From Armatimonadetes bacterium 55-13 (GTDB lineage: Bacteria; Armatimonadota; Fimbriimonadia; Fimbriimonadales; Fimbriimonadaceae): a DNA stretch of 64,000 nt. Location: the NCBI GenBank assembly GCA_001898035.1, contig MKRX01000006.1, forward strand, positions 576,150 to 640,149, given 5' to 3'. Below are positions 2,545 through 20,650 of the stretch, one piece after another (the stretch's first letter is position 1; the number at the start of each line of letters is the position of its first letter). Below the pieces are notes generated by a model that ran no database searches, was not told the origin of the DNA, and saw only the letters and a program-made list of their open reading frames with translations. The translations under genes and the position numbers were made by a program.

Positions 2545-2582
2545 GTCGATTGTTGAGCATCGGACACAATGAAAGCAGTCCG

Positions 2583-3209
2583 ATGAAAGCCGCGCCCGAC
2601 AAACTTCTCCTCGCGGTTGATCTTGCGGGAACTTTCGTCTTCGGCTTGGAAGGAGCGGTGGCCGGAGTCCGCGGCAACCTTGACGCCCTTGGTCTCATGG
2701 TCGTTGCTTTCGCCACTGCCCTTGGTGGTGGGCTCGTTCGAGACCTCCTCATCGGCTCCGTTCCCCCCAACGCAATCCGAGATGTTCGCTACGGCCTCTG
2801 TGCGTTTGCCGGGGCCGCCGTTGTCTTTTTCCTCCATCCTTTTGTCCAACAGGTGCCCGAACCCCTGCTCGTCCTCATCGATGCCGCGGGTCTATCCCTG
2901 TTCGCGATTGCTGGCGCTCGGAAGGCCCTGGACTATAACATCCCGCCATTCAGCGCCGTGCTCATGGGAGGGATCACGGGGGTGGGCGGCGGGACCATTC
3001 GTGACTTATTCTTGGCTCAGGTACCCGCCGTTCTTCGCACGGATATCTATGCCGTTGCCGCACTTCTGGGCGCGGCCCTCATGGTAATTGGTGTCCGGCT
3101 GAAACTCTCGCCGGCCGCGATGGCCCTAGTGGGTGGTCTTGCCTGCTTCACCCTTCGTATGGTGAGCTATCATCTCCACTGGAACCTGCCCCGACTCGCC
3201 AACAACTAG
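2583..3209 (+). CDS. TRIC/UPF0126 family membrane channel protein
   Basis: About 208 residues from the ATG at 2583 (a TTG at 2550 is also in frame). It has seven hydrophobic segments arranged as two similar halves, each with a glycine-rich kink and an IRD motif: GGGLVRDLL near residue 50 and GGGTIRDLF near 138. This repeat is the hallmark of the bacterial trimeric intracellular cation channel family (YadS/YicG, UPF0126), proposed potassium-permeable channels in the inner membrane. It follows the beta-helix fragment by a few bases in the same direction and is convergent with the S9 peptidase, only 3 bp away. The physiological substrate in this organism cannot be told. Confidence 0.88.
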   Translation: MKAAPDKLLLAVDLAGTFVFGLEGAVAGVRGNLDALGLMVVAFATALGGGLVRDLLIGSVPPNAIRDVRYGLCAFAGAAVVFFLHPFVQQVPEPLLVLIDAAGLSLFAIAGARKALDYNIPPFSAVLMGGITGVGGGTIRDLFLAQVPAVLRTDIYAVAALLGAALMVIGVRLKLSPAAMALVGGLACFTLRMVSYHLHWNLPRLANN

Positions 3210-3212
3210 CGA

Positions 3213-5363
3213 TCACTTCTTTTTATAGCCTGGACCAATCGTACGATCGAACAAATCGAGAATCCTGCGGTACTCGTCGACCCAGCTCGAAGGTCGAGTA
3301 AAGGCGTGATTCTCGACCGGGTAGGGAGCAACTTCCCAGTTCTTCTTGCCCAGATCGATTAACTTCTGAACGATGCGAACGGAATCTTGGAAATGCACGT
3401 TGGTGTCCACCATTCCGTGGCAAATGAGCAAGGACCCTTTCAGTCCTTCCACAAAATTAATAGGCGAAGATTGTGCATAGGCCTCTTTGTCGTCCTGCGG
3501 ATTGTTCAAGATCGGAGAGGTGTAGCCATGATGGTAGGAAGCCCAGTCTCCCACCGGACGCAATGCCGCTCCTGCCGTAAACACATCTCCTTCCTTAAAC
3601 ATCGCCATCAGCGTCAAGAACCCCCCGTAACTCCCGCCATAGATTCCAATGCGGTCCTTCGAGACTCCCTGGGTGGTTACCAACCACTTTGCACCATCGA
3701 CCTGATCGGTAAGATCTACTCCACCCATGTGCCGATAGATCGCCGTCCTCCAAGCCTTGCCGTAACCCGCAGAACCCCGATAGTCGATATCCAGGACGGC
3801 GTAGCCGTGATCGGCTAAGAGGTGGTGGAACATGTACTCCCGGAAGTAATGGCTCCACCCGTCATACACGTTTTGAAGGTAGCCCGCCCCGTGAGCAAAG
3901 ATGACCGCTGGCCCCCCTCTCTTCCAATTCTCGGGTTTGTAAAACCTCGCCGGAACGGGAGTACCGTCACGTGCCGGGATCATCACAATGGGAGGGTCGA
4001 TCCACGGTCCTGCCAGCCATTCTTCCGTGGGCGTGTTCGTCACCTGAACGTTATTGACATAGAGTTCGGCAGGGCGATTTGCCTTGGAGCGGACCACCGC
4101 GATGTCCTTGCCATTAGGCGCCAAGGCAAATGCTGCGTCCTCGTCTGCCGAGTAGTCCGCCAACTTTTCCTTTCCGGTCCCATCATAGGCGATTGCGTCG
4201 ATATGGCGTTTGAACGGACTGCCTTCGCTTGAAACGAAAACAAACCGATTGCGAGGAGAGTCGAGGAGCACGTCGGAAACTTCAAATTTTCCTGCGGTCA
4301 ACGCCTTGCTTTCTCCTTGAGGAGTTGAGGTCATCAAGTGGGCGTAACCGCTATTCTCGGATTCGAAATAGAAACGTGAAGAATCCGGCAGCCACCCAAG
4401 TGTTCCCGCTCCGGGGCCACCCACCCAGGCGTCGTCGTGTTCGGTCCAAAGCACGGATACTTTGTTGGAAGCCGCCTCGAATCCCAATATCCACGCATCC
4501 TTATGATCTTCTGCGTAAGCCCAGGTGATCGCATACTTTCCATCGGGGGACCAACGAAGTTGGCCCAACCTTCCCGTTCGTTGGGGCGCCAGTTCGGTCA
4601 TCTTTCCCGTTGCTAAGTCGTAAATGAGCGTCTTGCTCGTGTCTTGTGGCGTCCCCACTCGTTCATAGGTGGGAATCAGTTCGGAGTACCCACTTCGGGT
4701 GATGTAGTTGGGAACCGGCGCGCGCGTGGTTCCCTCCGGGGACTGAAAGAGATCGATGGAAGCATGCGATCCCGTCGGCGAAATCGCCAAACGACTGTTG
4801 CGATAGCCCGTCGGTATCGTAATTGCCACTGCCGTGCTGTCTCCAGAGCCAAAAGGGTTAGATCCACTCGACGCGGGCGCCTCGGTCTTGAGATTCGTCA
4901 ATTGTGTGGTCGCGCCATCGGCTAAGTTCACCCTAAAGAGATTGTCTCCCTTGGAGTAGATCACCGCTTCGCCATTTGCCACTAACTTTGGGGATTCTTC
5001 GCGATCCAGTGTGTTGGTGAGTCGAAGAGGATCGCCAGAACCCTTCCTCAAATAAATGTCTCCTCCCGATTCGTAGACCGTTTGGTCACCTAATTGATCG
5101 CCGCGATTCACAGCCCGTCCGGGACGTCCGTTGCCCGAGCCTGCCGCCAGACCTGTACCGTCCCGCTTAACCACATACTCTCGGTAACTTGGCTCTTCCT
5201 TTCCATCCGGCTTGGCCCATTGGAATCTCAATTCGCTTCCGTCTTCCGACCACCGCAAGCCACGCGGCGCCATTCCCACCAACGCCGGTCCTCGCATAAT
5301 CGATTCGATCGTCAGTTCGAATCTCGGTGTGGAAGGCGTAAACAGCAGGGCCAGAGAGAGCAT
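3213..5363 (-). CDS. Secreted S9 (prolyl oligopeptidase/DPP-IV-like) serine peptidase
   Basis: 716 residues with a short N-terminal hydrophobic segment (MLSLALLFTPS), probably a signal peptide. Residues 30-440 form a WD/TolB-like beta-propeller (repeats such as LRWSPDGKYAITW and IAVVRSKANR). This is followed by an alpha/beta hydrolase domain. The nucleophile is Ser about 578 in GGSYGG, the acid is Asp about 652 in GMVDTNV, and the base is His about 685 in ENHAF. Family S9 enzymes cleave short peptides, often after proline; this one probably processes peptides outside the cytoplasm. It is the last gene before the convergent TRIC gene and its 5' side faces the chemotaxis receptor. Confidence 0.92.
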   Translation of the reverse strand: MLSLALLFTPSTPRFELTIESIMRGPALVGMAPRGLRWSEDGSELRFQWAKPDGKEEPSYREYVVKRDGTGLAAGSGNGRPGRAVNRGDQLGDQTVYESGGDIYLRKGSGDPLRLTNTLDREESPKLVANGEAVIYSKGDNLFRVNLADGATTQLTNLKTEAPASSGSNPFGSGDSTAVAITIPTGYRNSRLAISPTGSHASIDLFQSPEGTTRAPVPNYITRSGYSELIPTYERVGTPQDTSKTLIYDLATGKMTELAPQRTGRLGQLRWSPDGKYAITWAYAEDHKDAWILGFEAASNKVSVLWTEHDDAWVGGPGAGTLGWLPDSSRFYFESENSGYAHLMTSTPQGESKALTAGKFEVSDVLLDSPRNRFVFVSSEGSPFKRHIDAIAYDGTGKEKLADYSADEDAAFALAPNGKDIAVVRSKANRPAELYVNNVQVTNTPTEEWLAGPWIDPPIVMIPARDGTPVPARFYKPENWKRGGPAVIFAHGAGYLQNVYDGWSHYFREYMFHHLLADHGYAVLDIDYRGSAGYGKAWRTAIYRHMGGVDLTDQVDGAKWLVTTQGVSKDRIGIYGGSYGGFLTLMAMFKEGDVFTAGAALRPVGDWASYHHGYTSPILNNPQDDKEAYAQSSPINFVEGLKGSLLICHGMVDTNVHFQDSVRIVQKLIDLGKKNWEVAPYPVENHAFTRPSSWVDEYRRILDLFDRTIGPGYKKK

Positions 5364-5468
5364 TCAGTAACGATACACCTTCACGTCCACCAAAGTTAAG
5401 AATTAAGGAGTCTGAAATATTGCGGTCACCACCGCAGGATTGGCCCATAGAGATGCACAAAAACACTC

Positions 5469-5494
5469 CAATGATCATTACTGAAAGATCATTG
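5469..5494. promoter_or_regulatory. 8-bp inverted repeat in divergent intergenic region
   Basis: CAATGATC (5469-5476) and GATCATTG (5487-5494) are perfect inverted arms with a 10-nt spacer. They lie between the divergent S9 peptidase (start 5363) and chemotaxis receptor (start 5622). This could be an operator for either gene or a leader hairpin. No partner regulator is visible. The rest of the 258-bp gap shows nothing else clear. Confidence 0.35.
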
Positions 5495-5621
5495 CTGTTC
5501 GGTGGAGAGGAGTCGCAATAATCACGCGTTAATGGGACATTAAGTCGCTCAAAGATGAATTAATTGGCTTAAGTACCAATGATTGGATTGGGACGCGCTT
5601 TGGCGCGAATGGATATCGTTT

Positions 5622-7571
5622 ATGCGAAAACGCTTCTTGGATTTGCGTCTGGGCGCAAAACTTGCAATTGGATTTGGGTTTTGTTTGGCTCTTAGCGTGG
5701 TCATCGCCATCGCTTCTTACGCGGGTTTTCGTGAACTCAAAAGAGACCTCGATATCCTGACCGATCAGTCGCTGGAAGGCGTTGGAATCATTAGTAACGT
5801 CGATACGGCCATCAACGAGTTCCGAACCACCCAGTTCCGATACGCGATGCATAAGGATGCCGAGGATTTCGCTCGCATGGCGAAGTTGGAACAGGAACAC
5901 GTGGCTGAAGCGCAACGACTTCTCGACAAGTACGAGGAAAACATCACCCAGCCAGAAGATCGAAAGAACTTCGATAAGCTACAGAAGACATGGGATGCCT
6001 ACGTCGAGAGCTGGAACTCGATCAAAGAAAAGGCGCATTCTCTCGACGAGACTCATATCGCCGACTTCCTGGAAGAGCAAACGACCAAGAAGTTTGAGGA
6101 AGAAGTCGTTCCGGATTTGGGCGCGGTCGTGACGTGGAATGAGAACGAGGGGCAACGAGCAAAGAAGCAAGCCGCCAGGACGCTCGCTACCTCTATCGAG
6201 GAAGTGATCACCGCGCTGCTCATCGCCATCGCATCTGGCATCGCCTTCTCCGTTGTCATAACACGCGCCATCGTTCGCCCCGTGCTTTCCATTTCAAAAG
6301 GCTTAGAGAGCCTCACCGACAATTGCGTCACTGATCTTCAGAACGGCATGAACGCGTTCGCAGAAGGTGATCTGACCGTATCAGCCAAGGCCGTCACGCA
6401 ACCAGTGATTTTGGACACGAAAGATGAGTTGGGCACGATCGCAAGGGCGTTTAACCGTACTCGGGGCATGGTCACGGACACCATTTCCTCTTACAACAAC
6501 GCCCGATTTTCTATGTCCTACTTAGTCGGACAAGTTAAGGAAGCTGCTGCGAACGTCGCACAATCCAGTGAGATTCTTGCCGCCTCGAGTGAAGAGAGCA
6601 CTGCCGCCGCCTCCGAGATCGCTAATGGCAGTGAAAAACTGGCCCGAGAAGCAACCTTGGTAGCGGAAGTTGTGGAAGGAATGTCCATGAACGTCATGGA
6701 CCTCAACCAATCGAGCGAAGAGCAACAAATCCTTGTCGTTCGGGCAAATGACTCCCTCGCCAACGCGACGAACGAGATTTCCGTCGTGAGCCAAGCCGCC
6801 GATAATATGGCTCAAATCGCGGGACGCGGCAATGCCTCGGTTGAAGAAACCGTCGATGCGATGAATCGACTTCGCAACCGATTTGAAACCTCTGCCCAAA
6901 AGGTCAAAGAGCTCGATGCTGCGGGGCAGCAGATTGGCGACATCGTCAAGTCCATCGAAGCCATCGCTGAACAAACAAACTTGTTGGCTCTAAATGCCGC
7001 CATCGAAGCTGCCCGAGCCGGAGAGCAAGGAAGAGGCTTTGCCGTCGTGGCCGAAGAGGTCCGAAAGCTCGCCGAACAAGCAGGATCTTCGACCAAAGAG
7101 ATTTCCGCGCTCATCGAAGGCGTTCGCAGGACCGTTGAAGAAACCGTCGTCGCCATCAACGGAACGAATGTCGAAGTGGAAACCGGATCGGCGCGGAGCG
7201 CTGAAGCGGGCGAAGCGCTTGCCCAAATCGTTTCCGCTGCCCAACGCGTTCTGGCTCAGTCCCGCGAAGTGAGTCAACTGACGGAAGAAGTCGGCAAAGA
7301 CGTCGAGGACGTTTCTTCCGCTTCCACTCGCGGTCGAACCATGATTCAGAATTTAACGGCCGGAACGACCTCCGTGACGGGATCGGTCCAAAGCGTCGCG
7401 GCGATCAGCGAACAATCGGCGGCTGGAGCGGAAGAGCTTGCCGCGAGTATGAATGAAATCAGTAGTGCGGCACAGAGCCTCGCCGGCACCAGTTCTGAAT
7501 TGGAAGCCTTGGTCTCAACTTTCCGAACCGAGAAAATTGACCGCGGGCCAGACTTGGCGAAAGCCGCTTAG
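5622..7571 (+). CDS. Methyl-accepting chemotaxis protein
   Basis: 649 residues from the ATG at 5622; an in-frame TTG at 5583 would only add a polar leader. Order: cytoplasmic stub, TM1 ([19 protein letters not shown]), a periplasmic four-helix-bundle ligand domain of about 150 residues, TM2 ([16 protein letters not shown]), a HAMP linker, then a long coiled-coil signalling domain. The hairpin tip [20 protein letters not shown] and [17 protein letters not shown] is the near-invariant CheA/CheW-binding region. It senses an unknown small ligand and signals to CheA, which is not in the window. The 3' end overlaps the convergent MFS gene by 4 bp. Confidence 0.95.
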
Positions 7572-8698
7572 CCTTCCGCGTTCTTTGCCAGCCCGGCAAT
7601 GACGAGGGACAAGATGGCGACCACGCCGAGCGCCCACCTCAAGGTGATCCACTCGGCAAGGAAGCCAATAAGGGGCGGGCCCACCAGAAAACCGCTATAG
7701 CCCATCGTCGCCACCGCTGCGATAGCCGTGCCGGGAGCCATTTGGCGCGACCGACCTGCCGCGCCAAATCCGATCGGCGCAACGGTTGACATGCCCAATC
7801 CCACGCACCCAAAGCCGATCAAGGCGAGTATCGGGTGACCCGAGAAGAGCGCGATCGCAAACCCAGTTCCAGAGATAGTCCCGGCTGTTCGAAGCACCCG
7901 ACTCGCTCCCCAACGTGTCATCAGCGCGTCGCCACTGAATCGCGCGACCGTCATCATAAGGGAATAGACCATAAACCCAGAAACCGCGAATTCTGCGCTG
8001 GTTTTCAGACCGTCTCGCAAGTACACCCCGCTCCAATCACCCATGGCTCCTTCACACAGAAAAGCGCACGTGACGATGGCTCCTATCGCCCAGAGCGACT
8101 TTGAAGGCATGGCAAATGTAGGATGGTTGGCATGCCCGGTTGGGTTTTCGTGCCACATTGCCGGATAGAGCAGAGCCATCATCGTGGCCAAGAACAAAGA
8201 AGCCCCGATGAGATGTGTCGTAGGTGCAATCCCCAGCTTGGCGATGAGCCATCCTGCGCTTGATCCCAATAGCCCCCCGAGACTGTACATGCCGTGCAGG
8301 GAAGACATAATCGATCGACCATAACGATGCTCCACGTCCACCCCGTTCGCGTTCATCGCCACGTCCATACCACCATAGGCGAATCCGAAACAAGCCAAGA
8401 TCGCGACGAGTCCCGAGAGTGAACCAGCAAAGGGAATCGCTCCCAAAACCAGACAGAGAAGAACACCCAGAAGAACTGTCGAGGAACGATTGCCAATGCG
8501 CGCGCACATTGCCGCTGCAACCGGGAAGCCGAGCAAAGAACCAACCGCCATGCCCAGCAAGGCAAGACCCAGCTGACCTTCCGTCAATCCATGTTCGTGA
8601 CGAATCTCCGGAATCCGGGACACCCAACTGGCGATTGCCGCGCCGTTCCCCAAAAACGCCAGCGAAATGGCCCATCGACCTCGCTTATGCGACGACAT
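7568..8698 (-). CDS. MFS transporter (YbjJ/fucose-permease-like)
   Basis: The ATG at 8698 (MSSHKRGRW) is preferred over the upstream ATG at 8836, which would add 46 mostly polar residues. About 376 residues form 12 transmembrane helices. The first half carries the Gly-rich motif [10 protein letters not shown] between TM2 and TM3 and the segment [35 protein letters not shown] typical of YbjJ/FucP-like permeases. It is a probable sugar or small-metabolite transporter of the inner membrane; the substrate is unknown. The neighbouring genes on both sides point the other way, so it is likely monocistronic. Confidence 0.87.
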
Positions 8699-8856
8699 GG
8701 GTTCAATTCGTGCCCTGGCTTCACCTATTGGCAGCGCGTCGTAATCCGGCGAGAGATCGTCCATTCGCTGCCGAAGTATGAAAGACGTTCGGTCTCGTCC
8801 CCTGGGCCATTCAAAAACCCAGGGCCAAACTGGCAATCATCTAGTAACCTCAATTC

Positions 8857-10038
8857 ATGACTCCCAAGCTGACCGCCGACGATCTCCGAAGAATCGTCGA
8901 GATCCGACACGACCTTCACGCTCACCCTGAACTCGGATATCAGGAAGTTCGCACCAGCGGCAGAGTTTCGGAAGAGTTGAGGCGCTTGGGGATAGAGCAC
9001 AAGACGAGCTTGGCTGGTGGCACTGGCGTATTGGGATATCTTCCCGCCACCACAAATTCAGAGTCTGCGCCTACCGTTGCATTGAGAGCGGACATGGATG
9101 CTCTCCCCATTTTAGAGAACACGGGGCTGGCCTACGCCTCCCAGACCCCAAATGTAATGCATGCCTGTGGTCATGACGGTCACACGTCGATTCTCCTGGG
9201 CGCGGCTAACTTGTTGAAGCATTTGCCCGAACGTCCAAATAACTTGCTGTTCCTTTTCCAGCCTGCCGAGGAAGGCGGCGCGGGCGGGATGCGCATGTGT
9301 GAGGACGGCGTTTTGGATGGCAAGGTCTTGGGCAAGCCTGCCGATCGAATATTTGGCCTTCACGGGCATCCGCAATCCACGGTCGGGCAGATTGCGACCA
9401 AGGTTGGTCCCATGATGGCGTCTGCAGACTCGTTTGCGGCTCGGGTTCAAGGCAAAGGCGGTCACGCCGCCATGCCCCAGTCAACAATCGATCCCATCGT
9501 GATAGCTAGCCAAATCGTCACCGCTTGGCAGACCATCGTTTCCCGAACCGTCAATCCACTTCAAGCTGCGGTGGTAACGGTCGGGCAGTTCCACGCGGGT
9601 GTTGCCCACAATGTCATTCCAGACACCGTTAATCTGGAGGGCACAGTTCGTGCTCTTGACGAAGATGTCCGACTGTCGGCCATCTCCAAGGTAGACCGGA
9701 TGGCCGAGGCCATTGCGGCCGCTCATGGCGCCACCTTTGAAATCGAGTGGATGCAAGGTTATCCCGTTACGTCAAACGACGCCGACGCAGAGGCCCTGTT
9801 GCGAAGGACCTTGGGAAGTTACTCCGGCGAACTCATCGACGAACCCGTTGTCCCCACCATGGGCGCGGAAGACTTCAGCTTCTATGGCGCCAAAACAAAG
9901 GCCTGTTTCTTCTGGCTTGGGCTAAACCCGTCGGAAGATAATGTCTATCCGAACTTGCACGCGCCCGAGTTCGATTTCAACGATGCCGCGATTCCCTTCG
10001 GCGTCGAAGCGATGGTTCGACTCGCCTTGGCATCGTAA
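8857..10038 (+). CDS. M20 family amidohydrolase (N-acyl-amino-acid / hippurate hydrolase type)
   Basis: 393 residues, the standard length for the M20D subfamily. Metal-binding and catalytic motifs are visible: ALRADMDALPI (catalytic Asp), MHACGHDGHTS (Cys/His/His metal site), QPAEEGGAGG (Glu-Glu) and PTMGAEDFSFY near the C-terminus. The dimerisation lid domain lies between about 180 and 290 (GKGGHAAMP). It hydrolyses N-acyl or amide bonds of amino-acid conjugates in the cytoplasm; no signal peptide is seen. The caspase-like gene starts 36 bp downstream and may be co-transcribed. Confidence 0.93.
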   Translation: MTPKLTADDLRRIVEIRHDLHAHPELGYQEVRTSGRVSEELRRLGIEHKTSLAGGTGVLGYLPATTNSESAPTVALRADMDALPILENTGLAYASQTPNVMHACGHDGHTSILLGAANLLKHLPERPNNLLFLFQPAEEGGAGGMRMCEDGVLDGKVLGKPADRIFGLHGHPQSTVGQIATKVGPMMASADSFAARVQGKGGHAAMPQSTIDPIVIASQIVTAWQTIVSRTVNPLQAAVVTVGQFHAGVAHNVIPDTVNLEGTVRALDEDVRLSAISKVDRMAEAIAAAHGATFEIEWMQGYPVTSNDADAEALLRRTLGSYSGELIDEPVVPTMGAEDFSFYGAKTKACFFWLGLNPSEDNVYPNLHAPEFDFNDAAIPFGVEAMVRLALAS

Positions 10039-10074
10039 TTGCCCGGAAGATGACCCGTCCGATGGGATTGAAAG

Positions 10075-13000
10075 ATGAATTTTCGGATTAGAATCCTTGC
10101 CTTTGCCCTTGCTGCGATGTCGATCTGGACAAGCGTGTCGGCTCTTGCCGATAATTCCATGGGGAGCAAGGTCAATGTGTTCGTTCCCCCCCGGCGCTGG
10201 GCGCTGGTCATTGGGGCCAGTCGCTATCAATCGATTGGCGCTCTCAAATATGCCTCTGCTGACGCGAAGCTCTTTGCTAACACCCTGAAAGAGACATTCC
10301 AGTATCAGCCCGAGACCGTTGAACTGCTGACCGACGACCCCGACTCTGGCAAAACCCCGGATGCCAAGTCCATCACGGCGGCTCTGGATCGTCAAATCGC
10401 CGACAAGCGCCTCGATAAGGGTGATCTCTTCATCTTCTACTTCGCGGGACATGGAGTAGGCACGCCCGAAGGAGACATGCTTCTGCCCACGGACGCAACC
10501 ACGCAGAACGCGGCGAAAGTCGGATTGCCGGTCAAAGCGGTTTTGGATCGGTTTGTCAAGGCGGGCCTCAAGAACGTCGTCGTGATTGCCGACGCCTGTC
10601 GGGCGGGTGAAAAGAACACGTTTGGTGCGGAACTCCAAGCGTTGGGAAAGCAAGCCAATATCGCGGTTCTACTGGGATGTTCGCCCGGCGCCCGCTCTTA
10701 TGAATATCCGCAGCTTGGTCACGGCGTGTTCACGAGCTTTCTTGCCAAGGCACTCAAGAGCAAAACCCTTCGCAGTCCCTTGACCGGAGCCCTTTGGACC
10801 TCAAAAGTCGCGGAGGAGGTCCAATCTAAGGTCCTCGATTACACGGCGAGAGACTATCCAGAGAGCCCCCAAAAACCGAGCATTCTCACAGAGAAATCTC
10901 AAGATGTCCTTCTGGGCGCATTTGAATCGAGCGTTGACGATCCTGCCGCCGTCCGTGCGATTCAAAAAGAGTCCGAAGGGTTGTCTCAGGACAAGAAGTG
11001 TGATGCGTTAACGCTCTTTGCGTCGGACCTTTACTCTTCGCACAAAGTCGAAGAGTCGATCGAAGTCTTCAAGGTGCTCGACCAACTGGATGCGCTTACC
11101 CCGATGAATCGCTACCTGTATTCGCTCGCACTTCGCGAACGCGGACGCTATGCGGAAGCTGTGAGGGAATACGACAAGATTCAGAAATCCGATGCCCAGC
11201 CTCTGATCCGTGAATTGGTGACTGCATTTAATCCATCGCGCCTCATCGCTCCAGACGTTCGATTGCAAGCGGCGGAAAAAGCCTGGGACATGGAACCGGC
11301 TGAGTGGGTGGGATTTGTGGTTTGGGCTTCTTGCCAAATGTATGGGTCCAAGGCAGACGCGAACGCGATACTGGAGAAGCTTTTGGCCAGCGACGTGCTG
11401 TCACCGCGCGCCCGGAAGTTCTTCGAAGGCATCCAAGCCGCAAATGCCGGAAACTGGCGGGCCGCCCTGGCCTCTTACGACTCCTGCGAGAAAATTGAGG
11501 GTGATACTCCGGGCGTTGACCTTATTGATGCTTATCGCTTTATCGGGCTCACCTTTTTGGGTGACACCGATGCCGTAGTGGCGTTGCTAAGGAAAAACGG
11601 AGAGGATCCCCAAAACGGAACGAAGAGCCTGTTGACGTTGGCTGAATACTACAAAGAGCAGGGGCAAGCCGATCTCATGATGGCCACCGTGAAGGCTGCG
11701 TTGGCGAATAACCCGGAACCTGATGACCTCTTGTGGGCACTTCGCATCGTAGCTCTTCGCTATCCCGAAATCATGCCAGTGTTGAAAGAAAAAGCGGCGC
11801 TCTATCCGTTTGCGTGGAAGGCAGCGGTGGCCAAGCTATGGGCCAATGCCGATCAAGGTTCCGGCTCCGTGCAAGCCTCCATTGACGAGGCCCTGAAATT
11901 CTGCGACGACGAGTTTACGGTCATGTTCGAATATCTCCGATTGCTCGACGAGCAGTTGGATGAGATGTTGGCAAAGGGACTCATCGCCAAAGATTTCTAC
12001 CTGCAAACTCAAGTGGCCTATTCATCGATCATGGCGGAGAATGTCGATGAGTTTGGCTACGATCCATACGCTTGGCTCCTGCTGAACAAGTTCGGTTTGA
12101 TGTCTGAGAAATACGAACAGGTGTTGGCTCTTTACAATCTCAAACTGGGAGCGTTGGCGGATCGAGGAAGCCTAGAACCCATGCTTCGCGCGCCTTACTT
12201 CTATGCCGCCGTTTGCATGGGAGATGAAAAGAGAACCGAGCAGTTATGGAAGCTGCAAGGATTTCACCCGGCGGATATTCGAGACTGCGCTCTGGTTCGG
12301 TCTATCTCTTTTGCCTTGCGCGGCCAAATCGCCGAAGCAAAAGCTGCCATGCCCGCTCAACTGCCATCGCCAGTGTTCAGACCAGCTCTCAAAGCCCTGC
12401 GTGCGTATATTGACGTAAGGGAAGGTAAGCCGGCCGACCTGGAGAGCTTGGTTGCGGGAGCGCAAAAGGAACCCGCCGCTCTCCAAATCCTTGCCCTTGC
12501 CTACGTTGCCAAAAAGGACTGGAAGCACGCCGAGCCTCTGCTGAAGAAGGTGGCATTCGAACGACAACTCATCTTCACGTTCGTCCAAGCCAGGACGGTG
12601 AAAACGCTCTTTGACCGATATGTCTCCACCAAGCGGATTAAAGAAGCCAATGAGATTGCGTACACCGTCATGACCTCGGCCTACGGAAATCCTCTGTATC
12701 GGGAGATTGGCTTCGATGGCCCACCCGATGTGAAGAAGTTTGTGGGCACGATCCAAATGGATACCGGAGCCTTCGATCTCTTGCCTGATATTGTCAGAGG
12801 GCATATTAAGCTCACTTTCACATCCGCAGGAGCCGTCTCCGGCTCAGGAGCCATGGGCGACTATCCGTTGAGTGTGACGGGAAAGATCGATGGCTACGGC
12901 AACCTGCAGGCCACGCTAAAGGCCCACGATCGAGTCTGGCGAATGACTGGAAAAGTGGCGCCGCCGCACCTTTATAAGGAGTTGCCTCAATTTCAGTCCC

Positions 13001-13104
13001 TCGGCCAGATATTCCTTCTGTTGGAGCCGAACGGCCAGGCTCTGTTCTATATGTGCCAACCCTCTAAACAAAAGACCGCGCCTCCAAAGAAGCGCGGTCT
13101 CTGA
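10075..13104 (+). CDS. Secreted caspase-like (C14) protease with long helical-repeat region
   Basis: 1009 residues with a signal peptide at 1-25 (ILAFALAAMSIWTSVSALA). Residues about 40-270 are a C14 caspase/metacaspase domain. RWALVIGASRY opens the fold, the His dyad residue is in FYFAGHG (His126), and the nucleophile is in IADACRAG (Cys175). The remaining 700 residues are TPR-like alpha-helical repeats with a small beta-rich domain at the end (SGSGAMGDYPLSVTGKIDGYG). Family members cleave after Arg/Lys or Asp. The helical region probably binds a partner or substrate outside the cytoplasm. It converges on an M48 protease that also carries helical repeats. The substrate is unknown. Confidence 0.87.
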   Translation: MNFRIRILAFALAAMSIWTSVSALADNSMGSKVNVFVPPRRWALVIGASRYQSIGALKYASADAKLFANTLKETFQYQPETVELLTDDPDSGKTPDAKSITAALDRQIADKRLDKGDLFIFYFAGHGVGTPEGDMLLPTDATTQNAAKVGLPVKAVLDRFVKAGLKNVVVIADACRAGEKNTFGAELQALGKQANIAVLLGCSPGARSYEYPQLGHGVFTSFLAKALKSKTLRSPLTGALWTSKVAEEVQSKVLDYTARDYPESPQKPSILTEKSQDVLLGAFESSVDDPAAVRAIQKESEGLSQDKKCDALTLFASDLYSSHKVEESIEVFKVLDQLDALTPMNRYLYSLALRERGRYAEAVREYDKIQKSDAQPLIRELVTAFNPSRLIAPDVRLQAAEKAWDMEPAEWVGFVVWASCQMYGSKADANAILEKLLASDVLSPRARKFFEGIQAANAGNWRAALASYDSCEKIEGDTPGVDLIDAYRFIGLTFLGDTDAVVALLRKNGEDPQNGTKSLLTLAEYYKEQGQADLMMATVKAALANNPEPDDLLWALRIVALRYPEIMPVLKEKAALYPFAWKAAVAKLWANADQGSGSVQASIDEALKFCDDEFTVMFEYLRLLDEQLDEMLAKGLIAKDFYLQTQVAYSSIMAENVDEFGYDPYAWLLLNKFGLMSEKYEQVLALYNLKLGALADRGSLEPMLRAPYFYAAVCMGDEKRTEQLWKLQGFHPADIRDCALVRSISFALRGQIAEAKAAMPAQLPSPVFRPALKALRAYIDVREGKPADLESLVAGAQKEPAALQILALAYVAKKDWKHAEPLLKKVAFERQLIFTFVQARTVKTLFDRYVSTKRIKEANEIAYTVMTSAYGNPLYREIGFDGPPDVKKFVGTIQMDTGAFDLLPDIVRGHIKLTFTSAGAVSGSGAMGDYPLSVTGKIDGYGNLQATLKAHDRVWRMTGKVAPPHLYKELPQFQSLGQIFLLLEPNGQALFYMCQPSKQKTAPPKKRGL
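13073..13100 (-). terminator. Hairpin terminator embedded in the end of the caspase-like gene
   Basis: Arms AGACCGCGC (13073-13081) and GCGCGGTCT (13092-13100) are perfect with a 10-nt loop. Read on the minus strand the stem is followed by TTTTGTTT. It would stop transcripts of the M48 gene that ends at 13111, yet it lies inside the last codons of the convergent caspase-like gene (end 13104). Confidence 0.7.
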
Positions 13105-13110
13105 AAGGCG

Positions 13111-14910
13111 TCAATCCACGTGAATCGGAGCGACGGTGATGCCAGCAATTTTCCCGTCGGCTACCCTGACTCCGAACAGCAGTCCAGGATAAAAACTCCA
13201 TTCCTCTAGGTTTCCGCTCGTTCCCACAACCTTCTTGGTTACCGCTTTGGAGAGATCCAAAACCTTGCCGAAGTCTTCCGTTGACATGCCTACCGTAACG
13301 CGGTAAGTTTGGTTTACCGTCGGATCGGAGGCTTTGAGATCGATATAAGCGCCCACGGCGGAAGAGGACACCCGGATGATCTGCCCACGCTCGGTAAGAG
13401 CCGCCAATGCGCCATCTTTCCAAACCCAGAACTGAACGTCGGGGTACTTATCGTCGATCTTCTGCTGAAGCAAAGGAGCGCCGAACGTATCCACGAACTC
13501 ATCCGAGTCGATCAAGATTCCCGCTTCCTTACCATTGAAGTTTAAAGCGACCACATTGCAAAGATAAGTTGGCTTTGGATTGACGTCGGCAGGTTTAACG
13601 CCTAGGGCTTCGCAAGACTTTACGTAGTGATCCTTCACGATCTGGAAGTAGGTGTTGGACGTCGGCGTGTTTTTTAACCACGTCAGCATAACGTCGGCCG
13701 CCAGCGCTTCGTCCTCCTTGGGGCGATTCGGAACATTGAACCGACCAAGGTTCTGACCGACGTATGGGCTAAATGCGGTGGTTGACTTTTGCGCCGCCAA
13801 AATTACGTCGTAAGCTTTCTGTACATCTCCCGCTCGGTGATATCCCACCGCCACGTTGTTGGCCAGGCGGAGCCGGTCGAAGTCCTTCGAACCCGTCATC
13901 ATTGCTTCCAGCTTTTTTGCCGCCCCCAAGATGGGAGTTTTGTCGTCGTCTGGAGCAATGATCGTAGCTAAACTCTCCAACTCGGAGACTCGAACGCTCG
14001 TCGGAAGTTTTGCTTTGGCGTTGGCGATGCGATCCATGGCCACCTTGAATCGAGCGATATCTTCCGGCCGAATACTTGGATCGATGGCACGGTCGCCTCG
14101 CGAATCCGTGAGCATTGGGCCAAAGTCAGGTCTAAACCACTTGTCTTGGACGGCTGCCGGAAGATTGTCGTAGTAGTCCATCAACGAGACCTGGGCTGCG
14201 TTAATGAGCGCGTCGGTCTGTTTCGGTTCCAGTTGATAGGCCTTTTCGAAGAGACGTGCCGCCGTCTGATAGGACCGGCACTCCCAATAGGCAAGTCCTT
14301 TCTCGAACGCCATCATGGATCTCATGACAGCCGGATTGCCTGAAACTTGTGCCGCACGATTCTTGGCGCTTGTATGGTCGTTCTTTGCCAGCTTCCACAT
14401 CCAAGTTGCATCGGACTCAAGCTCATCCAGCTTGAAGAGCATGTCCACCATGTCCTTCTTGCTGTAACCTGCTTTCTCAAGCAGAATGGCGCCTTGTGCA
14501 TCGGCGGCCATTTCTTGCTGGCGGGTCCAAAGATGCCGTATGTCTTGGGCGACGAATACGGGATTGTTGACGTGCCCGAGCATGAGGTGCGACACCTCGT
14601 GGGCGACCACGGCACGAATAATACGCCGATCCCCTTTGCAGAATTTAACGAGGCCGCTGTAGACGACCATCACCGCTTGGGGCGTTTCGCCTTCCTTGAC
14701 TTCTTTTTCGATGGAAGCGTAAGCATTGACTTCGTCGTTCGTGACAACGGAGCACTTGATGGGATAGATGTACTTGGAGTTGCGGGTCGACACGGCGTCA
14801 AGCTCACTCACCATTTTCTCGAGTTCCGCTTGCGTAAAGTCCTGAGCAAGGGAGGCCGCAACTCCGAGGGCTCCCACTGCCAGGGTCATGAATAAACGAT
14901 TCAGTTTCAA
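13111..14910 (-). CDS. Secreted M48 family metalloprotease with TPR-like C-terminal region
   Basis: The start is set at TTG 14910 because an AAGGAG box (14917-14922) lies 6 nt upstream and the product then opens with a signal peptide (MKLNRLFMTLAVGALGVAASLAQ). Longer in-frame starts up to 15051 would hide it and overlap the next gene. The M48 zinc site is AHEVSHLMLGH (HExxH at residues 104-108) with the downstream Glu in QQEMAADAQG. After about residue 180 come helical TPR-like repeats (GLAYWECRSYQTAARLFEKA) and a C-terminal beta-rich domain. It probably belongs to the periplasmic BepA/YfgC-like group that degrades or assists envelope proteins. That role is inferred from family and architecture. 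Confidence 0.86.
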   Translation of the reverse strand: MKLNRLFMTLAVGALGVAASLAQDFTQAELEKMVSELDAVSTRNSKYIYPIKCSVVTNDEVNAYASIEKEVKEGETPQAVMVVYSGLVKFCKGDRRIIRAVVAHEVSHLMLGHVNNPVFVAQDIRHLWTRQQEMAADAQGAILLEKAGYSKKDMVDMLFKLDELESDATWMWKLAKNDHTSAKNRAAQVSGNPAVMRSMMAFEKGLAYWECRSYQTAARLFEKAYQLEPKQTDALINAAQVSLMDYYDNLPAAVQDKWFRPDFGPMLTDSRGDRAIDPSIRPEDIARFKVAMDRIANAKAKLPTSVRVSELESLATIIAPDDDKTPILGAAKKLEAMMTGSKDFDRLRLANNVAVGYHRAGDVQKAYDVILAAQKSTTAFSPYVGQNLGRFNVPNRPKEDEALAADVMLTWLKNTPTSNTYFQIVKDHYVKSCEALGVKPADVNPKPTYLCNVVALNFNGKEAGILIDSDEFVDTFGAPLLQQKIDDKYPDVQFWVWKDGALAALTERGQIIRVSSSAVGAYIDLKASDPTVNQTYRVTVGMSTEDFGKVLDLSKAVTKKVVGTSGNLEEWSFYPGLLFGVRVADGKIAGITVAPIHVD

Positions 14911-14999
14911 CAAAGTCTCCTTCCGTTGAGGTCCGTTCAATAGGATGCACGACAATTTCAGAGGTTTCGTCGTTCTGCTATGAAGACTTTTTACTCTCT

Positions 15000-16217
15000 T
15001 CATAACTTGGCCGCCAGTCCTGTCAAAAGTGCTTGCACTGAAGTCTCGCATTTCTTCGTAACGGAGCTGACGGTCTCCCTTTTATGGGTGCTGTAATCGC
15101 TATGGTGCACAGCAAGAGAAATGGGGTCGCCTATGCCCACGTGAGCCTCTTGCCACCCCTGAATTTGAACCTGGCCAAACACTTCCTGCTCCATCCGCAC
15201 CAAAAGTTGCACCATTCTCTCAGGACTCGGATCGGCGGCGACGTAGCCATCGTAAACCGCGATCCAGTTTGCCAGTCGATCCAACTCATGGAGCGCTGGT
15301 TGGATATGATTTCGCGCCTCTTCCCAAAGTCTTAAGTCATAGGTCGTTTTGCCCTGGCTGGAATCGTGAGTCACTTTGTGAACAGCGTTTACCACCACCC
15401 GCATCTCTTCGGCGAGATTTCCTCCCTTGAGCTTCACTCCTGCTATCTCTGCCGCCCGTTCAAGCTGCATCCGCTTAATTCGATCCATCCGGTCGCCAAG
15501 GGCCGATGCGTCGTCTGGTTTGATCCCATACTGCCCCTCCAATTTGGCTACCATCACTTCTCCAATCCCACGGATTCGACCGTAGATCGACTCCGGTTGC
15601 GCCTCCGAAATCCCAACCGCTTTTTGGAGGCGACTGATGGAGTGGGCGATGGCGGGTTTCATGTCCTCGACAAAGCGATAACGAACTGCCACCGGCAGGA
15701 GTTTGATGTCGGCGGTCTCGTCCCCTTTGAGAGCGTCCTCCAGTCCCCAAAACGCCAACTGGACGACGCCCGATTGGAAGGGGAGAAGCGAATCGTTTTG
15801 CGAATAGACTTCTCCTTCGGGAAAGATCACTACCTTTGCCTTAGGTTGGGCCAAGAGGTTCCGAGTCATTGAGAAGGAAGCCCGATCCAGTGCGCCGCGC
15901 ACCAGGGAGTAGGCGCCAAGTCGCTGAATAAACTTTCCCCATAGTCCGCCCCCTCTATCGAAGGCCTCTCGGCAGCAAACGTAGTGAAAGGCATCTCCCG
16001 CTTGCCTCGCCAGCAAGAAAATGATGGCGGGCTCGGTATTGGTCGGGTGGTTAGGCAAGATCACCACGCGTTCATCACGAAGCTCGCGGACCCTTTCCAC
16101 ATCCTCCGGCTCAAAGCGAACCGACCGAACCCGTCGCGACTTCAGCGCCAAAGGAATAATCCCGTTCGCAATCGTCAAAGCGGTGCGACTTAGTTTTGGC
16201 GGCTTGAAATCGTGCAT
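15000..16217 (-). CDS. PlsC-like 1-acyl-glycerol-3-phosphate acyltransferase domain protein
   Basis: 405 residues. The acyltransferase motifs are NHPTNTEP (HX4E rather than the usual HX4D) at about residue 56 and FPEGEVYSQND at about 133. The second half (residues 220-405) is helical and has no recognised fold; it is longer than standard PlsC proteins (about 240 residues). It is likely a membrane-peripheral glycerolipid acyltransferase. The HX4E variant occurs in some PlsC relatives. It lies upstream of the M48 gene in the same direction, with about 90 bp between. Confidence 0.8.
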   Translation of the reverse strand: MHDFKPPKLSRTALTIANGIIPLALKSRRVRSVRFEPEDVERVRELRDERVVILPNHPTNTEPAIIFLLARQAGDAFHYVCCREAFDRGGGLWGKFIQRLGAYSLVRGALDRASFSMTRNLLAQPKAKVVIFPEGEVYSQNDSLLPFQSGVVQLAFWGLEDALKGDETADIKLLPVAVRYRFVEDMKPAIAHSISRLQKAVGISEAQPESIYGRIRGIGEVMVAKLEGQYGIKPDDASALGDRMDRIKRMQLERAAEIAGVKLKGGNLAEEMRVVVNAVHKVTHDSSQGKTTYDLRLWEEARNHIQPALHELDRLANWIAVYDGYVAADPSPERMVQLLVRMEQEVFGQVQIQGWQEAHVGIGDPISLAVHHSDYSTHKRETVSSVTKKCETSVQALLTGLAAKL

Positions 16218-16323
16218 CGCAGTTGCAATAAGTTATTCCAAGTGATCGCCCAAATACGAGAGAAACGAAAAATCTCTTCCGAGATTCGTCCACCTTTGCC
16301 GATCTAGCCCCGCCCCGAATAAT

Positions 16324-16995
16324 ATGAAGGGAATGTTTGGACTATCCGAACCGGAAGTCAAGATCGTCGTCGATGTTCTAATTAAACTCGGCGTGAGCGC
16401 GTTGCTGGGCGGATTGGTGGGTTGGGAACGAGAAGTTCATGGCCGTCCAGCGGGCATCAGGACGCATATGCTTTTGATCATCGGCGTCGTCCTTTTTACC
16501 GAGGCAAGCAAATATTTCGCCCACTCCGAAGCATCGCGAGTGGCCGCACAAGTGGTGGTTGGAGTTGGCTTTCTTGGTGCCGGCACCATTATTCGGACCG
16601 GCGGAGAGATTCGCGGACTCACTACCGCCGCCAGCATTTGGGCAACTGCGGGGATCGGAATGGCGGTCAGTCTGGGTGGTGCGTTTATGGCGATCGCGGT
16701 CCTCGCCGCCGTTTTAGCGCTTTTCACCCTAATCGTCGTCGACGTCCTCGAACATCGCTTCCTCCATACCAAACAACCCAAGGGGATGCGCCTCAAAATC
16801 GACGACCAAAACCAAGCCTTCGCGCTCTTAGAACACCTTTCGGCACAGCACGATGTCCAGATCAGGTCGGTCGAGGTCGTCCAATCCGCACCGGATGTCG
16901 TGCTGGACCTTGAAGTTCGGGGGGCAACTCAGGGCCTGCTTGAGAAAGTCCTCGCTCACCAGGGCGTCCGTTCAGCCGCCTGGCACAACCACTGA
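16324..16995 (+). CDS. MgtC/SapB family membrane protein
   Basis: 223 residues. The N-terminal 140 residues hold five hydrophobic helices with the MgtC signatures LLGGLVGWERE, RPAGIRTHMLL, GVGFLGAGTIIR and GLTTAASIWATAGIG. The soluble C-terminal domain (residues 155-223) is ACT-like. MgtC proteins act in magnesium homeostasis and acid adaptation, and inhibit F-type ATP synthase in some pathogens. In free-living bacteria the role is less certain. A second gene follows after 5 bp, so the two are probably an operon. Confidence 0.92.
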   Translation: MKGMFGLSEPEVKIVVDVLIKLGVSALLGGLVGWEREVHGRPAGIRTHMLLIIGVVLFTEASKYFAHSEASRVAAQVVVGVGFLGAGTIIRTGGEIRGLTTAASIWATAGIGMAVSLGGAFMAIAVLAAVLALFTLIVVDVLEHRFLHTKQPKGMRLKIDDQNQAFALLEHLSAQHDVQIRSVEVVQSAPDVVLDLEVRGATQGLLEKVLAHQGVRSAAWHNH

Positions 16996-17000
16996 CCCTC

Positions 17001-17450
17001 ATGAGTATTGATCCTGAAACCGAAAAATCCATCGCAAAGACCCTTTTCAACCACGTCTGGACCTTGATTCAAAGCGAGGCCCGCACCCCCGTTCAAGATG
17101 ACGAAATGGAATGGGCTGCCATGGCTTCGCTGTACCATTGGTCTAAAGTGGGAGATGCCGGAAACCTCGCCATCGGCCAGTGGCAAGTCGCCCATGTTTA
17201 CCTTCGGCTGGGAAGATTGGAAGAAGCTAAGCGGTATGCCCAAAAGGTGATCGAAACCTGTATGGGCGCCGGTCTAGGGGACTTCTACTTGGCATACGGC
17301 TACCTAGAATTGGCGCGGGCGCTTCGGAGCGAAGGCAAAGAAGGGGAGGCACACGCTTATGCGCTCAAAGCCAAAGAGACGCCCATGGCCGACCCTCACG
17401 ACCAAGAACACTTTGATCAAGATTTCAAGTCGGACGGCTGGGCGAGTTAG
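17001..17450 (+). CDS. Small helical-repeat protein of unknown function
   Basis: 149 residues, cytoplasmic, mostly alpha-helical. It has two TPR-like pairs around NLAIGQWQVAHVYLRLGRLEEAKRYA and AYGYLELARALRSEGKEGEAHAYALKA. I recognise no enzymatic motif. It sits 5 bp after the MgtC gene and its stop overlaps the stop region of the convergent lipoprotein gene. Similar small TPR proteins are common in bacteria; no specific function can be assigned. Confidence 0.72.
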   Translation: MSIDPETEKSIAKTLFNHVWTLIQSEARTPVQDDEMEWAAMASLYHWSKVGDAGNLAIGQWQVAHVYLRLGRLEEAKRYAQKVIETCMGAGLGDFYLAYGYLELARALRSEGKEGEAHAYALKAKETPMADPHDQEHFDQDFKSDGWAS

Positions 17451-18796
17451 GGCGTGGGATCTTTGACGCGTGTGGGATAGGTGACACTGACGTCGGCAGG
17501 CAGGATGCCACTCTTCTTCTCGTTACTTCCCTTATCGTCTTTACCGTCAAAGCCGACACTGTAGATCTTGAATCCGTTGGCGGTGAAGGTCATTTTGAGA
17601 GGGGCATCCGTGAATGGGTCTCGCCATTCTGGGCGACTCGCCTCGGCGGGCATGTGCCATGGCCCTTTGAGAGGTTGAGTTTCCACGATGAGAAGGGCCA
17701 TTCCGGTTACTCTTTGCCTTGCGATTCCAATGGTGAGTGACCTCATCGGCGCTCTATAAAGTTGTCCTTCCTCCGAGAACGCGAACTGCTTGTAGATGGG
17801 ACTGTAGGCTTGATAGATTGCTTCGATTCTTGGCTGAAACTTGTCGCTGACCTCCTCTAGCTTTTGTGGATTAGGGTTTTCACCTAGGGCTTTGCGGGCT
17901 TCGATGAGGATTTTTACGAGGCTGGCTTTGGCAAGGGCTAAAGCCCGGGGAGACTTCAATTGAACGTCCCCCGGCTTGACCCCAAGTTGTTTGAGACCTT
18001 CGGTCGTGGTCAACCACTCCAGGCTATCCAACATTAGGGCTTGTTCGAAGTTCCAAATCCGGCGGAGGTCGGGCGCGGGCCGAGGCGTCATGACGATCTT
18101 TCTTGTCTCGGCGAGAAAGGCCGAATCTTGGGGGCGGATGCGGGCGAAGTCAAGGGCGGTACGGGAGGCGATCGCATCGATGGATTCGGCGACGATAAGG
18201 CAAATGAGATTTGGCTCAGTCCCGATGTGTTCGGAGAACCGATACATTGATCGGAGGATTTGGTTCGCGTACTGAGTCTCGCCATTGTGGGCGGCAAGCG
18301 TGGCTTCTGCCCGCATCCATTTGGCTAAAGACTTGAGACGCGCGAGGTCTGGCAGGAGGGTTGCAACGCCCTGCCCCCACGGACGATTAAAATCCCAACC
18401 GGGCTTTTCCAGAGCCCGCATGGCATCTTTGAGAATGGGGCGCACGATGGGCAAGTACTTCTTGAGTTCGCCGTAATTGGGTTCTGCCGATCCGAGAAAC
18501 CAATCTTTCTGGGTGTCCGCTACTGCCTGATTCAGTTTTACGATCTCCGGTCGGTATCCTTGCTGAAACTGGAAGAAGCCGGGTTTCTTCGGCAGCATCG
18601 CCCTCACCAGCGCCTTCTTGAGATCAGCGGCGGCGTTCTCCTCGGGGGAAGGGCGTTTTATGCCTCGTAGAGCGTCTCCAATGGTCAGGGGAACGCCCTG
18701 GGCGACCGCCTTCTTTTCGACAGCGGCCAACTTCGACAACGGATTTGAGCAACCCGTGACGATGACGCAAGCCGAAAGAAAGATAAAGGCCTTCAT
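17447..18796 (-). CDS. Secreted lipoprotein LipoB, intact paralogue of LipoA
   Basis: The ATG at 18796 gives MKAFIFLSACVIVTGC, a lipoprotein signal peptide with lipobox VTGC. The product is 449 residues. It matches LipoA (367-1599) along the whole length, then has the complete C-terminus: PAEASRPEWRDPFTDAPLK followed by NGFKIYSVGFDGKDDKG. That tail motif also occurs at the C-terminus of many secreted proteins of Planctomycetes and Armatimonadota. The function is unknown. An open frame upstream is continuous with the beta-helix fragment at 18976-19243, so read-through could give a 600-residue fusion, but the internal signal peptide argues this ATG is the real start. Confidence 0.85.
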   Translation of the reverse strand: MKAFIFLSACVIVTGCSNPLSKLAAVEKKAVAQGVPLTIGDALRGIKRPSPEENAAADLKKALVRAMLPKKPGFFQFQQGYRPEIVKLNQAVADTQKDWFLGSAEPNYGELKKYLPIVRPILKDAMRALEKPGWDFNRPWGQGVATLLPDLARLKSLAKWMRAEATLAAHNGETQYANQILRSMYRFSEHIGTEPNLICLIVAESIDAIASRTALDFARIRPQDSAFLAETRKIVMTPRPAPDLRRIWNFEQALMLDSLEWLTTTEGLKQLGVKPGDVQLKSPRALALAKASLVKILIEARKALGENPNPQKLEEVSDKFQPRIEAIYQAYSPIYKQFAFSEEGQLYRAPMRSLTIGIARQRVTGMALLIVETQPLKGPWHMPAEASRPEWRDPFTDAPLKMTFTANGFKIYSVGFDGKDDKGSNEKKSGILPADVSVTYPTRVKDPTP

Positions 18797-18834
18797 TCCA
18801 TTCACTTTTTTAGTATCAAACAGCCTTCGGCAAA

Positions 18835-18978
18835 CTACTCCGTTTTGCCGACGGATGATTCGAAGAAGGGGTAGGTCACGACGATATCGGCGAATGGACC
18901 GCCACCTCGACGGGATTGAGATCCGTGGTCGTCCTTTCCATTCGGGCCGATGCTGTAGAGGCGAAATCCTGATGTCTC
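18835..18978 (-). pseudogene. Severed C-terminal tail of LipoA
   Basis: On the minus strand the bases from 18978 to 18835 encode ETSGFRLYSIGPNGKDDHG, then a stretch ending in GKTE and a stop at 18835-18837. This matches the last 48 residues of LipoB and begins precisely where LipoA (367-1599) stops. It has no start codon of its own apart from an ATG contributed by the adjoining beta-helix sequence (18987). It lies 38 bp upstream of LipoB in the same orientation, which is where the end of LipoA would sit if the two lipoproteins were once a tandem pair. Confidence 0.82.
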
Positions 18979-19243
18979 GAAGGCCATTGTGGGCGGGGAC
19001 GGATTCCCAAGTTCCTTTGAGGGTAACCCCTTGAGGAACATTGATTTGTCCCAGAAAAGGATAGCTTCCCGATGGAGCGTAAACCTGGACATGCTGGCTG
19101 GCAGCAGAGTCCAGAGCAGTTTGAAACGCCTTGGTGTCGTCGGTCTTACCATCACCCTTGGCGCCAAAGGAGGTGACATCGATCATGTTGGCTTGGCCAA
19201 AGGTCAGGGCGGTCGCCAAGGATGCAATCAAGGTTGGGATCAT
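18976..19243 (-). pseudogene. Pectate-lyase-like beta-helix protein, N-terminal half
   Basis: The ATG at 19243 gives MIPTLIASLATALTFGQA, a signal peptide. It is followed by DVTSFGAKGDGKTDDTKAFQ, the standard N-terminal capping motif of pectate-lyase-3/rhamnogalacturonase-type beta-helix proteins. The sequence then reads VPQGVTLKGTWESVPAHNGLR and loses the family pattern at the CGAG at 18979-18976. The C-terminal half is at 1600-2544 on the other strand. Past the breakpoint the frame stays open through the LipoA tail in a different reading frame and enters LipoB without a stop, producing a chimeric open frame. Confidence 0.82.
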
Positions 19244-19405
19244 GAGATTCGGATCGGAAGTTGGAACGCAAGGCCGGTCTTGCTTCGACTTGTCCTGCGC
19301 TTGACGGCAATTGCCGGACATTGCCCGTTTACGTACGCGGGGAAAGCGTAGCGGGGAATGTCCATCGATTACATCTTATGTTAACCAAATCAGTTTTTTA
19401 GGACG

Positions 19406-20650
19406 TTACTTCTTCCGAGGCGCCCAGATTCGATACTGACCGCTGGCGTGGAGCAATCCGAACATGTAGAGCATCCCATCGTAGTAACGCCATTGCCCGC
19501 TGGGAATAGGAGCGTTCCACAGGGCGTTGACGAAGTCGGGGGCGACTTTGTCCGTGGCGGCAAGACTTGCCGCGGCATTCATGGCGACGTGGCCCGTTGC
19601 TTGATAGTCAACCACGGGGTTGCCATCCACCGTATAGCCGGAAACGTATTTGGGTTTTTGGTTTGCGAAGAATTTGAGAAGACGATTCGTCTGCTCAACC
19701 TGCCACGGATCTTCCCCAAACCAAGCGTAATCCATAGCAATATTGCCCGCAACGCGGAAAGCATCCGATTGGAAATTATCCGACTTGTTGGTGCTGGGCC
19801 ATGGGGGCTTGGTTGGTTTGCCATCGAAAGTGCTGTAGTCAGGATAAAGCCCCGTTACAGGGTGAGCCGCCTTTTTGAAGAACTTGCGACTGGTGGCGGC
19901 GGCATCTTTCCAAAACTCTCGATCTTCCTTTGCCCACCTAGCCCAGAGTTCATAGAAGGCGGGAAGATGGTAGGAAGCATCGGTGAAAGTTGCGGCCTGA
20001 CCGTTCGGAACAAAGACAACCTGCTTCTCCTTGGAATCGAACATATTCATCGCGTTATCCACGATGCCTCCGTTGTCTTTTTCTTTTCGTAGCATGACGT
20101 GGAGAATATGATCGGCCTCGGCCCGGTAGTTTTTATAACCACTGGTTGATCCCCAACGGCCATCGGCGAAGAACAGGGCCATGGCGAAGTATTCCTCGCC
20201 ATCAGAGGCAGGAAACTTCGTGCGTTGCTTCCCGGAGTCCTCGCAAGACCATGCGAAGTAGCCTTTCCAGGGCCCCTCTTGGTGCTGCATATGGGTTTTG
20301 GCCCATTTCCAAAGGCGGTCGAACTCCGCTTGGCGGCCGTACTGCACCGCGATCATCATGCCGTAGGACATTCCCTCTGAGCGGACATCGCCATTGCCGA
20401 TGTCTTTGATGTATGCCATATCCTGGCCCACCGGATAATAAACGCGCTGGTTTTCGGTCCCTTCAAAGAGCTGTTTCCAGGCGGCGTTGAGCTTATCGCA
20501 AATCTCTTGATCCGACTTACCCTGCTCCCGGAAGAGGTTTCGGTATTGCCCAGTAGCGAACGACCGGGGACTCTTTCCCGCCGGGGCGGCTTTCGAAAGA
20601 GGCGGTTGAAAGAGGTCTTGAATGACAAGCACAGCAAGAAGGGTGAGCAT
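19406..20650 (-). CDS. GH8 family glycosidase, probable reducing-end xylose-releasing exo-oligoxylanase
   Basis: 414 residues. GH8 (alpha/alpha)6-barrel landmarks: GNGDVRSEGMSYGMMIAVQ with the proposed proton donor Glu92, then FAWSCEDSG, PASDGEEYFAMAL and a later DAFRVAGNIAMDYAWF containing the expected catalytic-base region. These match the exo-oligoxylanase (Rex) branch of GH8, which removes xylose from the reducing end of xylooligosaccharides. A short N-terminal hydrophobic segment is present (MLTLLAVLVIQ), so export is possible. The gene begins 4 bp after the GH52 xylosidase and is surely co-transcribed with it. Together the two would degrade xylooligosaccharides from both ends. Confidence 0.9.
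   Translation of the reverse strand: MLTLLAVLVIQDLFQPPLSKAAPAGKSPRSFATGQYRNLFREQGKSDQEICDKLNAAWKQLFEGTENQRVYYPVGQDMAYIKDIGNGDVRSEGMSYGMMIAVQYGRQAEFDRLWKWAKTHMQHQEGPWKGYFAWSCEDSGKQRTKFPASDGEEYFAMALFFADGRWGSTSGYKNYRAEADHILHVMLRKEKDNGGIVDNAMNMFDSKEKQVVFVPNGQAATFTDASYHLPAFYELWARWAKEDREFWKDAAATSRKFFKKAAHPVTGLYPDYSTFDGKPTKPPWPSTNKSDNFQSDAFRVAGNIAMDYAWFGEDPWQVEQTNRLLKFFANQKPKYVSGYTVDGNPVVDYQATGHVAMNAAASLAATDKVAPDFVNALWNAPIPSGQWRYYDGMLYMFGLLHASGQYRIWAPRKK

Follow-up and report, generated by a model that had tools for sequence, protein, structure and literature searches.

An Inversion of About 17.4 kb Breaks Two Genes and Leaves a Chimeric Open Reading Frame in an Armatimonadetes Genome

Introduction

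On the minus strand of the stretch of DNA analyzed here, 64,000 nucleotides from Armatimonadetes bacterium 55-13 (the window), one reading frame runs from 19243 to 17447, a total of 598 codons without a stop. The first-pass annotation had described this frame as a chimera of about 600 residues created by an inversion, in which the start of a beta-helix gene (BH) leads through the tail of a lipoprotein gene (LipoA), read in a foreign frame, and on into a second lipoprotein gene (LipoB). The length and the absence of stops were as described. The question raised by the locus is whether this frame is a fusion gene in its own right, or an incidental consequence of a rearrangement whose main effects lie elsewhere.

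Two Broken Genes with Reciprocal Halves

The N-terminal part of LipoA (367–1597, plus strand) is 38% identical to LipoB and ends at a TAG codon (1597–1599) that was made by the join. The detached C-terminal tail, which reads SGFRLYSIGPNGKDDHG in its own frame, is found at 18835–18971 on the minus strand and is 47% identical to the C-terminus of LipoB (E = 1.4e-6). It ends 38 nt upstream of the LipoB ATG, in a region through which the fused frame passes in a different phase. When the two parts were rejoined in silico (367–1597 followed by 18971–18835), the resulting LipoA had 455 residues, including the C-terminal SGFRLYSIGPNGKDDHG motif, and shared 39% identity with LipoB across 443 positions. 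A motif similar to this one ends many of the relatives.

The N-terminal 90 codons of BH (18973–19243, minus strand) encode a hydrophobic start, which we take to be a signal peptide, as we do for the N-terminus of LipoB, followed by the first rungs of the helix. The C-terminal part (1598–2544, plus strand), parted from the start and signal peptide, was assigned by homology to the intact proteins in L007 and L008. The N-part is 60% identical to the protein in L007 and 51–55% to that in L008; for the C-part, the corresponding identities are 65% and 54–56%. Intact BH homologues are present as frames of 428–429 residues in two distant relatives (G033 and G029), in which the homologue of the N-part continues unbroken into that of the C-part, via GLRDASEAKPTD or GLRDAGEAKPTD. 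BH resembles the PF12708 pectate-lyase-like beta-helix proteins in its N-terminal part, which scored above the Pfam cut-off (Pect-lyase_RHGA_epim, 2.8e-14), but differs from them in that it lies in two pieces 17 kb apart, with a C-part that alone matched no Pfam family. Comparison of the C-part with solved structures and NCBIfam gave no matches, or matches at chance level only. The rejoined BH (19243–18973 followed by 1598–2544) is a full open frame.

Both broken genes have complementary halves, in inverted orientation, at the opposite ends of a segment of about 17,375 bp (1598–18972), as in an inversion scar; the segment is defined by these reciprocal half-genes and by the gene order in relatives, described below. 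On the basis of the sequence, we regard the 17.4-kb inversion, which joined the two broken genes reciprocally, as confirmed. It cost LipoA its conserved tail and BH its signal peptide. The breakpoint had been placed at 18976, close to the join found here between BH and the linker, at about 18972/18973. If the flip is taken to be strictly conservative, the two frames cannot both be recovered: by coordinate arithmetic on the working pair of joins given above, one base is left over, and a join with one added base hinges on an inferred ancestral codon. The left junction (1594–1640, plus strand) is likewise in frame, and only the TAG at 1597–1599 parts the LipoA frame from the BH C-part.

The genome is a 27-contig assembly and the relatives carry another order, as would be the case if both junctions were chimeric and the real chromosome were uninverted. 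Such an artefact would, however, require two independent and exactly complementary mistakes, and both reciprocal junctions lie within one 956-kb contig, with no match longer than 10 bp between the junction regions that could have misled the assembler. We consider this explanation very unlikely.

Gene Order in Related Genomes

The order predicted before the flip is UbiD(−) LipoA LipoB TPR(−) MgtC(−) PlsC(+) M48(+) casp(−) M20(−), where MgtC and TPR were matched in Pfam, and UbiD, casp, M20, M48 and PlsC are named provisionally from inspection of the sequences. The comparison with relatives covered the flanking genes. A single 8.9-kb contig of the congener G002 carries UbiD−, TPR−, PlsC+, M48+, casp− and M20−, with no match to MgtC, and a single 6.4-kb contig of the congener G001 carries PlsC−, MgtC+ and UbiD+, which is the same order on the other strand, with no match to TPR. 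In the source genome, 16 kb separate MgtC from UbiD, which lies on the other strand. UbiD lies less than 3 kb downstream of MgtC, on the same strand, in four of the 22 other MgtC-bearing genomes of the family (G001, G018, G013 and G067); it is elsewhere, on a different contig or far away, in 16 and without a match at the cut-off in two. Judging by these sequences, the MgtC–UbiD order is conserved only in part. The uninverted flanking order is kept in the two congeners and in three genomes of other genera (G018, G013 and G067). Since these relatives keep the predicted uninverted order, the arrangement in the window is, on the evidence of gene order, the derived state. Together with the reciprocal half-genes and the intact BH homologues, this order bears out the earlier proposal that an inversion linked the BH N-part to LipoB in one open frame by way of the LipoA tail, read in a foreign frame.

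In the stretches that were read from G001, G002 and G018, neither LipoA nor LipoB had a match at the corresponding site. The MgtC–UbiD interval looks like a variable site. In G001, three other ORFs are found between MgtC and UbiD (L053:2212–4504), at the predicted ancestral spot of LipoA and LipoB, and in G002 the distance from UbiD to TPR is about 60 bases. In the stretches around the BH homologues of G033 and G029, only BH matched, besides the N-terminus of g23491 in L037. The glycine-transporter gene and GH8 were discarded as synteny markers, being confined to the source genome (1 of the 85 genomes searched for the former and 1 of 12 for the latter); PlsC, which occurred in 4 of 12 genomes, pointed to the G002 contig.

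Relatives of LipoB are present in 37 of the 85 family genomes searched, including the source genome. Head-to-tail pairs of LipoB-type genes were seen in five (L041, L042, L045, L046 and L047) of the ten neighborhoods L038–L047, which were picked as good hits and not randomly. Because of these pairs and of the rejoining described above, we infer that LipoA and LipoB were paired, and that LipoB originally lay just downstream of LipoA. In many LipoB-type proteins, the C-terminus carries a G-F-x-x-Y/W-S-x-G motif and, after it, acidic residues. LipoB itself matched no Pfam family and gave no match, or chance-level matches only, to solved structures and NCBIfam.

Outside the window, about 6.4–9.0 kb upstream of it, a protein of 854 aa is encoded next to Cas1, Cas2 and Cas4 (L032:11034–13598, minus strand), beside an array of at least 36 repeats. 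The protein matches Cas12l (9tq4, 1156.6 bits) and CasPi (7yoj, 673.1 bits); Pfam and PADLOC gave no match, and NCBIfam gave just a weak one to Cas12e.

Joining of the Ends

Inverted matches between the two junction regions do not exceed 10 bp, and the longest lies away from the join. On either side of the join, a CGAG tetranucleotide lies 4–5 nt away. Genes for Ku, for a LigD ligase with a phosphoesterase domain and for a separate LigD polymerase are clustered elsewhere in the genome (G000:C6, about 87603–90683; L066:5604–8684). Because Ku and LigD genes are present and no long repeats occur at the joins, end joining by these proteins is the likely route. The likeness to bacterial non-homologous end joining consists in the presence of Ku and a split LigD, in joins without extensive homology and in about one added base. 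The difference is that the mechanism is read here from the scar alone, and the CGAG near the join makes microhomology-aided joining possible as well.

All of the gene fragments retain open frames, as they would in a recent flip or in a reversible one produced by a site-specific or phase-variable switch. Reversibility is nevertheless extremely improbable, since the longest inverted match has only 10 bp and does not lie at the join, none of the 10 proteins scanned around both ends is a recombinase, and a precise recombinase would not leave one base over. A phase-variable switch was rejected on account of the lack of inverted repeats at the joins and of frames that do not close exactly.

The Fused Frame and LipoB

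The fused frame is made up of 90 BH residues (1–90, up to GLRD), 59 foreign residues (91–149) and the 449 residues of LipoB (150–598). The mechanical ORF over it starts further upstream, at ATG 19321, and has 624 aa. The linker (18797–18972, minus strand) had been put at roughly 85 residues; it has 59, of which 15 are Arg, with a net charge of +15. The strongest hydrophobic segment of the fused chain starts at residues 149–153, directly after the linker.

The 176 nt that comprise the LipoA tail and the spacer are open in one of three frames. For 59-codon stretches read out of frame in 20 ORFs of the window, 1454 of 9958 were open with a shift of 1 and 1098 of 9958 with a shift of 2, or 11–15%. 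In the uninverted locus, there were already 112 open codons upstream of LipoB in its frame, so that any break there in the right phase would have led to a fusion. The open frame is unremarkable per se; it is the inversion that exceeds chance. In the part of the linker that derives from the LipoA tail, the fused frame has the lowest codon score of all three frames (−0.28 bits per codon), compared to +0.24 in the LipoA frame and −0.11 in the remaining frame. The codon use of the linker is like that of non-coding DNA.

LipoB is intact (17447–18796, minus strand, 449 aa). It starts with an ATG of its own at 18796 and has a VTGC sequence (MKAFIFLSACVIVTGC) that is presumably its lipobox, in agreement with the internal lipoprotein signal proposed in the first-pass annotation. 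Shine-Dalgarno-like pairing is weak for LipoB (−3.9 kcal/mol, rank 20 of 32 starts) and weaker still for BH (−0.5, rank 28 of 32). Scans of 17400–19500 revealed no sigma-70-like promoter and no minus-strand terminator-like site. Upstream of the BH start, on the same strand, lie the Pfam-matched GH8 and GH52 genes, with 162 bases between GH8 and the BH ATG.

If the frame were a true fusion gene, the 598-aa chimera would be the main product, with the BH signal exporting the linker and LipoB fixed to the membrane by its internal signal. The frame from 19243 to 17447 without a stop and the weak pairing of the sequence upstream of the LipoB ATG with the anti-Shine-Dalgarno are in line with this, as is a deletion-born fusion, yjcO–lysU, which is reported to be transcribed and translated in the LTEE (PMC12803068). 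However, a linker with a charge of +15 would need to cross the membrane, and the LipoB hydrophobic segment would then face in the opposite direction to a normal lipoprotein signal. Moreover, the chain would contain two export signals, the LipoB start is intact, the BH start lacks Shine-Dalgarno-like pairing, and the fused frame is the least gene-like of the three in the linker. As far as sequence can tell, the charged linker, the two export signals, the intact LipoB start and the non-coding-like codons argue against the fused secreted product, which the first-pass annotation had called possible, as the main product, and we consider a true fusion gene unlikely.

No relative of LipoB close enough for a comparison of selection was present among the genome contigs, where a pattern scan for close strains gave 77 pattern matches and no relatives, and in other family genomes no match exceeded 35% identity. 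Nothing in the sequence appears to support the usefulness of the chimera. The in-frame fusion of BH to LipoB is probably an incidental open frame, and any fused protein probably a by-product.

Discussion

The locus is probably best explained by a single inversion that broke two genes, with LipoB made mainly from its own start and the fusion incidental. Most likely, LipoA suffered a double-strand break close to its 3' end and BH another close to its 5' end, and Ku/LigD end joining would have religated the ends the wrong way round, with about one base added. LipoB was thereby moved from the side of LipoA to its present place downstream of the BH start and the GH52–GH8 genes. It would now probably be transcribed from the BH/GH52–GH8 side, which is likely to be the lasting effect of the inversion, and translated mainly from the ATG at 18796. 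Some fused protein may arise, and would probably be mislocalized or degraded. The description of the locus as a snapshot of gene fusion holds for the origin of the frame, but the breakage of two genes and the move of LipoB from LipoA to BH are better supported.

The closest published kind that we found is the deletion-born fusion, in which a rearrangement connects the beginning of one ORF with a second one (Kaul et al., bioRxiv 2026, PMC12803068). The window fusion likewise joins the BH start to another ORF, and in the mlaE–htpX fusion of that report, too, the open frame continues into a fragment that is itself out of frame. In contrast to those cases, the fusion in the window arose by inversion, without a large deletion, so that the other gene halves survive, and the fused frame keeps a third gene, LipoB, whole. 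The fusions described in PMC12803068 do not appear immediately functional, and its sole mention of inversion concerns partial inversions that shift k-mer distances. Our searches of the open PMC literature brought up no report of an inversion-born gene fusion in bacteria, which is no proof that there is none.

It is rather improbable that the locus represents a young inversion-born fusion, with a translated chimera and with LipoB in the course of recruitment to a new export and regulatory setting downstream of the glycosidase cluster. If it did, gene birth and promoter capture would have come from one end-joining event, with no loss of DNA.

Inversions are usually treated as movers of genes. 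Here, one event broke two genes, re-sited a third beside a new upstream region and left a long chimeric open frame, and the gene order before the flip can be read from congeners. Although the inversion-born frame shows no new function, inversion is added to deletion among the sources of candidate bacterial fusion genes, which suggests genomes that carry Ku and LigD as a place to look for others.
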